Origin: Clostridia bacterium
Lineage (GTDB): Bacteria > CBDUZB01 > JAGLHV01
Length of the DNA stretch: 8,985 nucleotides
Reading direction: 5' to 3'
Assembly (NCBI GenBank): GCA_030595925.1
Contig: JAUVLC010000099.1
Span: forward strand, 1-8,985
Below the pieces are notes generated by a model. The model worked only from the letters and a program-made list of their open reading frames with translations. It was not told the DNA's origin and ran no database searches. Each line of letters starts with the position of its first letter. The first letter of the stretch is position 1. Shown here one piece after another: positions 6,472 through 8,518 of the stretch. The position numbers and the translations under genes are program-made.

Positions 6472-6723
6472 TTACAATTTAATCTTTTTAATTTTCAAAT
6501 ATGCTTCCAGAGAACCTGTCTTTTTAAATATTTCCCAATAAGGACTATTTTGCTGTTGATCCAAAAGACTGATAATTACTTCTTTATCAGTGTATCCACT
6601 GGAAACTAACATTTTACCTAACCGTTTACGATGTTTTTTGTGTTTTTGTTCTTCAAGCACTGCTTCTAATTGTTTTTTTGTTATTATTTTCTCTTTTCTT
6701 AACATTTCCCCTAACCTTGACAT
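6472..6723 (-). CDS. Free-standing MshEN (T2SSE_N) domain protein, likely c-di-GMP-binding
   Basis: 83 residues consisting of little but a MshEN domain, the module found at the N-terminus of type II secretion and type IV pilus ATPases such as MshE, where it binds c-di-GMP. The known 24-residue motif (RLGxxhhxxGhhxxxxLxxxLxxQ) occurs twice: residues 3-26 (RLGEMLRKEKIITKKQLEAV, then LEEQ) and 34-57 (RLGKMLVSSGYTDKEVIISL, then LDQQ). Each is exactly 24 residues and they are joined by a basic seven-residue linker. The first motif has Lys where Gly is expected (position 10) and Arg at position 7; the second keeps the Gly. There is no ATPase domain; a 26-residue tail follows. ATG 6723 has AGGAGG seven bases upstream; an ATG directly after that site is out of frame. 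The gene follows a c-di-GMP-I riboswitch. Confidence 0.82.
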   Translation of the reverse strand: MSRLGEMLRKEKIITKKQLEAVLEEQKHKKHRKRLGKMLVSSGYTDKEVIISLLDQQQNSPYWEIFKKTGSLEAYLKIKKIKL

Positions 6724-6758
6724 CTTTCATCCTCCTTTTATCACTATAAAATATCCCC

Positions 6759-6780
6759 CTTGCCAACAAACACTTGCCAA
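6759..6780 (-). repeat. Direct repeat TTGGCAAG in the leader after the riboswitch terminator
   Basis: TTGGCAAG occurs at 6780-6773 and again at 6766-6759 on the minus strand, between the terminator and the Shine-Dalgarno of the MshEN gene. Its TGGCAA core can pair with TTGCCA at the aptamer's 3' edge (6814-6809), so it could form an alternative fold in read-through transcripts. This is inference from complementarity only. Confidence 0.45.
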
Positions 6781-6781
6781 T

Positions 6782-6821
6782 AAAAAAAGCCCGATTGCCT
6801 TCATGTCCTGGCAACCCGGCT
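6782..6821 (-). terminator. Riboswitch expression platform: intrinsic terminator
   Basis: The left arm AGCCGGGTTGCC (6821-6810) pairs with GGCAATCGGGCT (6799-6788) in a 12-position stem with one G-G mismatch and one G-T wobble, and a ten-base loop. Seven T's follow (6788-6782). The left arm is itself the conserved 3' segment of the c-di-GMP-I aptamer, so the folded aptamer and the terminator cannot coexist. This predicts that ligand binding prevents termination (ON switch). Confidence 0.8.
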
Positions 6822-6880
6822 AACTCGTCAAAAACGAACCCCGTGGTTTTGCGTCGTACAATCTCTTGTACTTTGCTTTT
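6809..6880 (-). promoter_or_regulatory. c-di-GMP-I (GEMM-I) riboswitch aptamer
   Basis: The minus-strand order of conserved elements fits GEMM-I. GCAAA (6876-6872) is followed by a perfect six-pair hairpin GTACAA/TTGTAC closed by a GAGA (GNRA-type) tetraloop (6871-6856). Next comes the hallmark GACGCAAAaCC (6855-6845), then a variable second hairpin (GGTTCGT pairing ACGAGTT with wobbles, 6840-6822), then AGCCGGGTTGCC (6821-6810), the conserved 3' segment. The tetraloop would dock on the second hairpin in known structures. The outer closing helix on the 5' side is not obvious. A related class (GEMM-Ib) senses cGAMP, and I cannot exclude that ligand. The element lies about 90-150 bases upstream of the MshEN gene; no clear promoter is visible between it and the PorV-like gene, so it may act on read-through or from a weak promoter. 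Confidence 0.82.
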
Positions 6881-6940: not shown

Positions 6941-8518
6941 TCACAGGTTTCGCCATTTGTCAACCACTTTTTTATCATTTTTTATTTTTCCTTTTTTGCT
7001 AATTTTTTTCAGGTTTTTCTTTATTCTTTTATTATCCGGATCAAGATCTAATGCCCGTTTATATAAACTTTTTGCTGCTTTCTTATTTCCTAATTTATAA
7101 TAACAATACCCCATACCAGCATACAATTTAGCAGTTTTATACCCCCGTTTCAATGCTATCCTATATTCTTTAATTGCTGTTTGGTATTTTTCTTGTTTGC
7201 AATATTTTTTTCCGTTTTTATAAAATTCTATCCCTATTTCTTTTTTATTCTTATTTTTTTTACTTAGTTTTTTGTTTTTAACTTCCTGCTTTTTTACCTG
7301 TTTCGTTTTACCAACCTTTTGTTTTTTAACAATTTTTTTCTTCTTATTAATCTTTTGTTTTTTAACAACTTTTTTCTTTTTATTAATCTTTTGTTTTTTA
7401 ACAATTTTTTTCTTTTTATTAATCTTTTGTTTTTTAACAACTTTTTTCTTTTTATTAATCTTTTGTTTTTTAACCCTTCGCTTTTCTTTTCCAAACGCTA
7501 CATTGTTTTTTCCAAATTTTAATCCAAAAGATAAGCGGTGGGTATTTCCTAATTCATTAAACGGAACAAAGGCATAATCTAACTGATACACTTTCATATT
7601 TACCCCTAACCCAACAGATAACCCGGTCAAATTATCCTTATCCGAACCTGTTTTCAAATCCTTTCCTATACTTTTGTACCCCATTCGAAAAGAAACCAGC
7701 TTCTTCCAACAGTATTCTCCACCAATATTAAAATTAAAATTCCCCCCTTGTGGTTGATATAAATTCAACCCTATCTTAAGAGCATCAGCTAACAAACTAT
7801 ATCCCAAGCCAAAGTCAAACATCAAGGGTAAATCATGTTTCTCTTTAATAAAAGCTTTTGTTTGTAATCCCAAATTTTTTACTGAACAGGATAAAGTTAA
7901 ATCATTTGCCGGTAAATCATACAATGTCCCTATATCAAAAGCAATGGCATTAGCAGTATAACCCTGTATGTCCTCATGTACTCCTTTCATATTTATACCC
8001 ACATTTAACCCTCCAGCAACCTTACAACCATACGCAGCTATTACTGCCAGGTCATAGGGACGATAAGAACCCAAATTTACTCCATCAGGGTTATCCAGTG
8101 TAGTTTCCTGTATCTGCCCATAATCCAAATAGACGACACCCACACCTAAACCACCCCTGGCTAAAGGTAAGGCATAACCAAAATATCCTGAATTAATACC
8201 TGCTATGTAACTTAAATAAGAAGCGGTAATTTCCCGTTCGGTTATCTCTCCTAATCCTGCCGGATTCCAGTAAATAGCATTAATATCATCTGCTAATGCA
8301 CTATATGCTTCTCCCATACCAACAGGTCTTGCTCCCGCACCTATTTTTAAAAAGTTGAAGGCTGTTGTCCCGGCACCCTCACCGGCAAAACAAAAAATAC
8401 TTTGGAATATATAAAATACGAGGGATGCAATAAAAAAAACCTTCAGTATTAATGCCCGGTTCGTTTTTTTTGCCTGCTTTTGTTTTTTTATAATCTTTTT
8501 CATTTTTTTGCCTAGCAT
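6941..8518 (-). CDS. PorV/UPF0164-family outer-membrane barrel fused to Lys-rich repeats and TPRs
   Basis: 525 residues. A long basic n-region and hydrophobic helix (about 22-42) form a signal peptide ending FCFA at 45. Residues 46-337 are a PorV/PorQ (UPF0164) type beta-barrel: TAFNFLKIGAGARPVGMGEA, ALADDINAIYWNPAGLG, many GLGxG and Y/F-alternating strands, closing with HRLSFGLKFG. Residues about 347-427 are almost only Lys, Gln, Ile, Val and Asn, built from a 12-residue repeat (VKKQKINKKKKV). Residues about 430-497 form two TPR units (KYQTAIKEYRIALKRG; LYAGMGYCYYKLGNKKAAKS). Known PorV proteins end at the barrel, so the spacer and TPR tail, presumably periplasmic, are unusual. AAAGGA six bases before ATG 8518 supports this start over ATG 8503. 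In T9SS organisms PorV receives cargo with C-terminal sorting domains; a candidate cargo is encoded downstream at 4706-6250. Confidence 0.85.
   Translation of the reverse strand: MLGKKMKKIIKKQKQAKKTNRALILKVFFIASLVFYIFQSIFCFAGEGAGTTAFNFLKIGAGARPVGMGEAYSALADDINAIYWNPAGLGEITEREITASYLSYIAGINSGYFGYALPLARGGLGVGVVYLDYGQIQETTLDNPDGVNLGSYRPYDLAVIAAYGCKVAGGLNVGINMKGVHEDIQGYTANAIAFDIGTLYDLPANDLTLSCSVKNLGLQTKAFIKEKHDLPLMFDFGLGYSLLADALKIGLNLYQPQGGNFNFNIGGEYCWKKLVSFRMGYKSIGKDLKTGSDKDNLTGLSVGLGVNMKVYQLDYAFVPFNELGNTHRLSFGLKFGKNNVAFGKEKRRVKKQKINKKKKVVKKQKINKKKKIVKKQKINKKKKVVKKQKINKKKKIVKKQKVGKTKQVKKQEVKNKKLSKKNKNKKEIGIEFYKNGKKYCKQEKYQTAIKEYRIALKRGYKTAKLYAGMGYCYYKLGNKKAAKSLYKRALDLDPDNKRIKKNLKKISKKGKIKNDKKVVDKWRNL
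7316..7474 (-). repeat. 36-bp in-frame tandem repeat, about 4.4 copies
   Basis: On the plus strand the unit begins CTTTTGTTTTTTAACAA and recurs at 7316, 7352, 7388, 7424 and 7460 at exactly 36-base steps. It encodes the 12-residue Lys-rich repeat of the PorV-like protein. Units 1 and 3 have AACAAT where units 2 and 4 have AACAAC, giving alternating Ile and Val. This implies a 72-base unit that was itself duplicated. Confidence 0.95.

Follow-up and report, generated by a model that had tools for sequence, protein, structure and literature searches.

In the 8,985-nucleotide stretch of DNA analysed here (the window, one whole contig, C56, of the 2.6 Mb draft genome G000, with 97% completeness), a GEMM-I riboswitch aptamer lies before a gene for an 83-residue, stand-alone MshEN-type protein. 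This pairing, noticed in a first-pass annotation, was confirmed and is conserved in one sister genome (G002, locus L053, a metagenome assembly), where the aptamer, the terminator stem and the protein are all kept. Each part was already known; their combination is new. The aptamer, its overlapping terminator, the protein motif, the conservation and the boundaries of the unit are established at the level of sequence, and we consider it probable that together they form a self-contained, ligand-induced gene for a free MshEN_N four-helix c-di-GMP receptor, most likely acting in trans. The comparison sample included two further members of the genus (G001 and G002), the remaining genomes being related at the domain level only.

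A GEMM-I aptamer overlapping an intrinsic terminator

A GEMM-I (c-di-GMP-I type) aptamer was detected by cmscan at 6886-6806 on the minus strand, scoring 70.6 bits (E = 3.8e-14) against RF03168, above the gathering threshold of 65.9, and 60.8 bits against RF01051, above the cut-off of 35; the latter was the covariance check proposed with the original aptamer claim, which it bore out. The aptamer of L053 is conserved (70.2 bits). Another Rfam match, to CrcZ at 6594-6679, scored below its cut-off and was set aside as a chance hit.

Folding predicted an intrinsic terminator at 6821-6782 (minus strand; -17.3 kcal/mol, then 7 T), and its 5' arm (6821-6810) doubles as the aptamer's 3' strand. This aptamer strand, AGCCGGGUUGCC, pairs with GGCAAUCGGGCU, with further T after it, and C6811 pairs with G6798. 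The aptamer-overlapping terminator stem is identical in L053, and its loop has diverged. When growing transcripts were folded without ligand, the core of the aptamer was present until about 136 nt, after which the terminator replaced it. Since the same strand serves as the 5' arm of the terminator and the 3' strand of the aptamer, a transcriptional ON switch is predicted. The pilM cGAMP riboswitch of Geobacter metallireducens is an ON switch of matching design, its terminator drawing on the 3' strand of the aptamer and sequestering C75 (PMC9262584); the ON direction in the window is thus a structural prediction, based on the folds and on this match.

Boundaries of the unit and its Tad neighbourhood

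All elements of the unit are encoded on the minus strand. It begins with a sigma-70-type promoter, TTGACA-17-TATATT with a TG before the -10 (6963-6935; 11 of 12 matches), identical in L053, and continues beyond the aptamer with the Shine-Dalgarno sequence AAAGGAGG (6738-6731) and the 83-codon gene (6723-6472). A terminator hairpin followed by a T tract (6383-6357) ends the unit; it is kept in L053, where it can still be folded despite changed stem letters. The next gene has a promoter of its own, TTGACT-17-TATAGT (6351-6323; 10 of 12 matches), also conserved in L053. The promoter and terminator that bracket the gene, and the further promoter in front of its neighbour, indicate a self-contained unit that adjoins the Tad cluster rather than leading it, so that of the position first described, directly upstream of a Tad pilus operon, the proximity stood and a leading role did not.

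The downstream Tad/Flp cluster (6250-582, minus strand), a separate transcription unit, encodes a Por_Secre_tail protein, Flp-like pilins, TadE/TadG-like proteins and RcpC/CpaB; in the Pfam scan RcpC was matched with an E of 6e-25, and the Tad/Flp matches were weak. The cluster also includes a 71-aa cysteine-containing protein with no Pfam match (1665-1880). Elsewhere in the window, a 525-aa protein carries lysine-rich tandem repeats (about KKQKINKKKKVV; 7294-7494), flanked by a PorV-like barrel and a TPR, and this repeat region aligned irregularly with the sister genome.

The 83-residue protein resembles the MshEN_N subdomain

Residues 3-26 of the protein, RLGEMLRKEKIITKKQLEAVLEEQ (6717-6646, minus strand), have the pattern RLG...L...L..Q of the MshEN motif (PMC5013675), and a motif search found it again at residues 34-57, RLGKMLVSSGYTDKEVIISLLDQQ (6624-6553, minus strand), with Ile for the first Leu. 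Both sets of R, L, G and Q are kept, the Leu to Ile change affecting one contact position, and none of 200,000 shuffles of the same residues contained two MshEN motifs. A phmmer search against the PDB retrieved Geobacter PilB (E = 3e-7), Vibrio cholerae MshE (5htl; E = 2.3e-5) and Thermus PilF (E = 1e-4), and homologous N-termini of pilus or secretion ATPases were found in about half of the sampled genomes.

The PF05157 search that had been suggested for verification returned no match to the protein at E<1 in the Pfam scan. In two ATPases of this genome, PilB (C83) and a GspE-like protein (C70), the PF05157 matches fall for the most part after the stretch with homology to the small protein, indicating that the latter corresponds to MshEN_N without MshEN_C and that the profile, which models the MshEN_C half, fails on it for this reason. 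The description of the product as almost only a MshEN domain was therefore right as to the type of motif and too broad as to its extent. The motif copies of the two ATPases read KLG/KLG in C83 and YLG/FIG in C70; as the motif arginines are missing from both, the motif of the free protein is the best preserved found here. An AlphaFold model built from a two-sequence alignment was helical and weak (pLDDT 65), and Foldseek found no matching fold in the PDB.

The isolated MshEN_N of V. cholerae (residues 1-62) binds c-di-GMP with a KD of 0.35 uM (PMC5013675); the MshEN_N half was also sufficient for binding in an adapted Thermus PilF construct, and in PilF Ile at two Leu positions cost only about 2.4-fold (PMC12002112). 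We infer from the motif that the 83-residue protein would bind c-di-GMP.

Conservation and spread

The expectation that the small reading frame would be conserved in relatives was borne out in one sister genome, as the L053 orthologue is 95% identical at the amino acid level. The two genes differ by 4 nonsynonymous and 10 synonymous codon changes (dN 0.025, dS 0.28, dN/dS about 0.09), with no nonsynonymous change in residues 33-83; judged by these substitutions, the gene is under purifying selection. The contig of the other sister, G001, begins inside the downstream gene, so that absence of the riboswitch-gene unit from that genome cannot be claimed.

Significant matches to the protein were obtained in 137/290 genomes. 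Apart from the window and its orthologue, every match listed (to E of about 8e-5) sat in an open frame of 131 aa or more, in most cases that of an ATPase of 550-650 aa; among the matches listed, the free 83-aa form thus occurs only in this genus. The pairing with a riboswitch was found in two closely related genomes only; in six other genomes with short or medium MshEN proteins, no riboswitch above the cut-off was detected nearby.

A regulon of GEMM-I switches in the genus

The cyclic-dinucleotide network of the genome is sizeable, with 3 PilZ proteins, 9 GGDEF matches and about 19 GEMM-I switches (L001-L019); G001 and G002 have about 12 switches each (L055-L078). Other switches of the genus precede genes for a Flp-like pilin (L018), TadG-like proteins (L017, L058 and L060) and PilX-like proteins (L008, L012 and L014), all named by eye. 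Given this network and these appendage genes, a riboswitch-induced free receptor fits a surface-appendage regulon.

Expression platforms are mixed across the genus: about 10 switches overlap a terminator as in the window and many others have a separate one, so that ON-like and possibly OFF switches coexist in one regulon. Several of the separate-terminator switches allow an antiterminator with the aptamer's P3 arm to be drawn by eye, which suggests OFF switches. One GEMM-I-like element near a folD-like gene (L019, contig C32) is interrupted by an insertion, carrying its own hairpin and T run, that separates P2 from P3. On contig C78, a PF05157 protein with degenerate MshEN_N motifs (L022) has as neighbours, named by eye, a DUF4388-like protein and a small MglA-like GTPase.

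Ligand of the RNA

Alignment placed the pocket nucleotides of the window aptamer at 6877 (A20), 6850 (A47) and 6811 (C92) on the minus strand. The register was set with the Geobacter aptamer sequence, and the published labels G8, A9, A11, A12, A14, C15, G40, A41, A42, C75 and C76 agree with it. Two of the three letters of the class I c-di-GMP pocket (G20, A47 and C92) are present and G20 is missing, whereas the A20, A47 and C92 of a cGAMP-type (GEMM-Ib) pocket are all found; the remaining pocket letters are canonical (GCAAA...GACGC). The name of RF03168, c-di-GMP-I-UAU, we take to denote the pocket letters U20 and U92, and at these consensus columns the window aptamer has A and C. The selectivity nucleotide of the cGAMP riboswitch, A14, is equivalent to A20 and lies in the pocket just before C15, where P2 starts; C75 of the same RNA, equivalent to C92, pairs with the ligand guanine (PMC6274999; PMC9262584). 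GEMM-I aptamers with the G20A change bind cGAMP (PMC6274999).

Because A20 shifts GEMM-I aptamers toward cGAMP, c-di-GMP may not be the best ligand of this aptamer, nor is it certain that the RNA and the protein share one messenger. The proposal that the mRNA and its product read the same molecule accordingly keeps its two elements, a GEMM-I aptamer and a MshEN-type c-di-GMP motif, and is weakened as regards the identity of that molecule. Among the approximately 19 aptamers of G000, only that of the window has A20, all others having G20, and its G002 orthologue also has A20. Two G001 aptamers have A20 where their G000 orthologues have G20, and position 20 switches between G and A in orthologous riboswitches of the genus (L015 versus L065; L005 and L061 versus L056); this alternation implies that the position may be loosely constrained.

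At the guanine-contact position of GGDEF domains, diguanylate cyclases have Asp and Hypr enzymes have Ser. No Hypr GGDEF (Ser/Thr at this position) was found among the GGDEF domains of the three genomes, in which two GGDEF proteins carry Asn instead (L083 on contig C131 and L094 on C170, with orthologues L092 and L090; the sister copy of the C131 protein, L082, has Asp). A CD-NTase was also considered as a source of cGAMP and rejected: the single SMODS-type match (L126, contig C135) stands beside a gene resembling a membrane effector, a small protein with membrane segments, perhaps forming a CBASS defence pair, and a defence role is likelier. Taken with the lack of a Ser/Thr signature, the G/A alternation at position 20 makes c-di-GMP the more economical candidate ligand, while cGAMP, or binding of both, is a serious alternative.

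Proposed mechanism and alternative readings

Under the reading that we favour, transcription would start at the strong promoter and pass through the aptamer. Without ligand, the aptamer 3' strand would pair with the sequence just downstream and form the terminator; with a cyclic dinucleotide bound, it would be held in the aptamer and RNA polymerase would read through. As a free c-di-GMP receptor with the predicted four-helix MshEN_N fold, the protein would appear at high levels of the cyclic dinucleotide and bind c-di-GMP immediately. It would most likely act in trans on the machinery of pili or secretion, where it could bind, for instance, a motor ATPase in which this site is missing or has been lost. 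The partner is speculative; the protein could plausibly act on a pilus ATPase as an adaptor or competitor. The two Tad-type ATPases of the genome (C34 and C169) gave no MshEN match.

The RNA may instead sense 3',3'-cGAMP and the protein c-di-GMP, joining two signals, a possibility that we hold tentatively and to which we give a minor share of our confidence. It draws on the GEMM-Ib-type A20/A47/C92 pocket, on A20 being unique to the window aptamer within its genome and present in its orthologue, on cGAMP binding by G20A aptamers, A20 corresponding to A14 of the cGAMP riboswitch (PMC6274999), and on the two GGDEF proteins with Asn where Hypr enzymes have Ser; set against it are the missing Ser/Thr enzymes in the three genomes, the G/A alternation at orthologues (L015/L065; L005/L056) and the otherwise canonical pocket. 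A bolder version is a long shot: a riboswitch responding to cGAMP, or to both ligands, would induce the free c-di-GMP receptor, and this would dock on pilus motors that have no functional MshEN_N of their own; if true, one cyclic dinucleotide would decide whether pili listen to another.

Two further readings dispense with a partner or with a function. That the protein merely soaks up rising c-di-GMP and dampens signalling is unlikely: it contains little beyond a binding module, and its induction would track the ligand if the switch is ON, but the 26-residue tail after motif II, fully conserved in the two genomes, would be needless for a pure buffer, and nothing except a good promoter suggests high expression. 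That the gene is a decaying pilB-type fragment placed by chance behind a riboswitch was already disfavoured and is highly improbable; its homology is only to the N-terminus of larger ATPases, yet the frame is intact in two genomes, with a Shine-Dalgarno sequence, a dN/dS of about 0.09 and a conserved terminator after the stop, and its motif arginines are better kept than in the genome's own ATPases.

Comparison with known systems

The usual targets of class I c-di-GMP riboswitches are surface genes with structural or metabolic roles, and MshEN commonly forms part of an ATPase; here a protein receptor detached from any ATPase lies under the control of an RNA receptor. Should this be confirmed, cyclic-dinucleotide signalling would gain a compact feed-forward unit, the question whether MshEN_N works in trans could be put to a natural test, and the A/G alternation at position 20 within one genus would make ligand specificity traceable through recent evolution.

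The window aptamer shares the fold, GNRA loop, core letters and intrinsic-terminator platform of class I riboswitches (GEMM-I, RF01051; RF03168), and differs in having A20 instead of G20 and a stand-alone protein receptor as the downstream gene. With the pilM GEMM-Ib riboswitch of G. metallireducens it has in common the A at the selectivity position, the C at the Watson-Crick position and the ON architecture; in contrast, it has a canonical GC/GC pair beside the pocket and controls one small protein gene, in a genome where no Hypr GGDEF was found. The pilA1 class II riboswitch of Clostridioides difficile, which reads through into the pilB operon (PMC6366702), resembles the proposed switch in c-di-GMP ON control of pilus gene expression, including in that case an ATPase gene, but it is a class II RNA, its first gene encodes the major pilin and no free receptor domain is involved.

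As in the MshEN domain of the MshE, PilB and PilF ATPases (PMC5013675), the 83-residue protein has two tandem 24-residue motifs and keeps or conservatively changes all ligand-contact positions; unlike them it lacks MshEN_C and the ATPase, ends in an unrelated conserved 26-residue tail and has a 7-residue linker instead of 5 (as in Geobacter PilB). Although no riboswitch or c-di-GMP binding is described for it in the review (PMC11656802), CpiA, a trans-acting PilB inhibitor of Acinetobacter baylyi, offers a precedent for such a protein acting in trans, since it binds and controls an extension ATPase as a protein in its own right.
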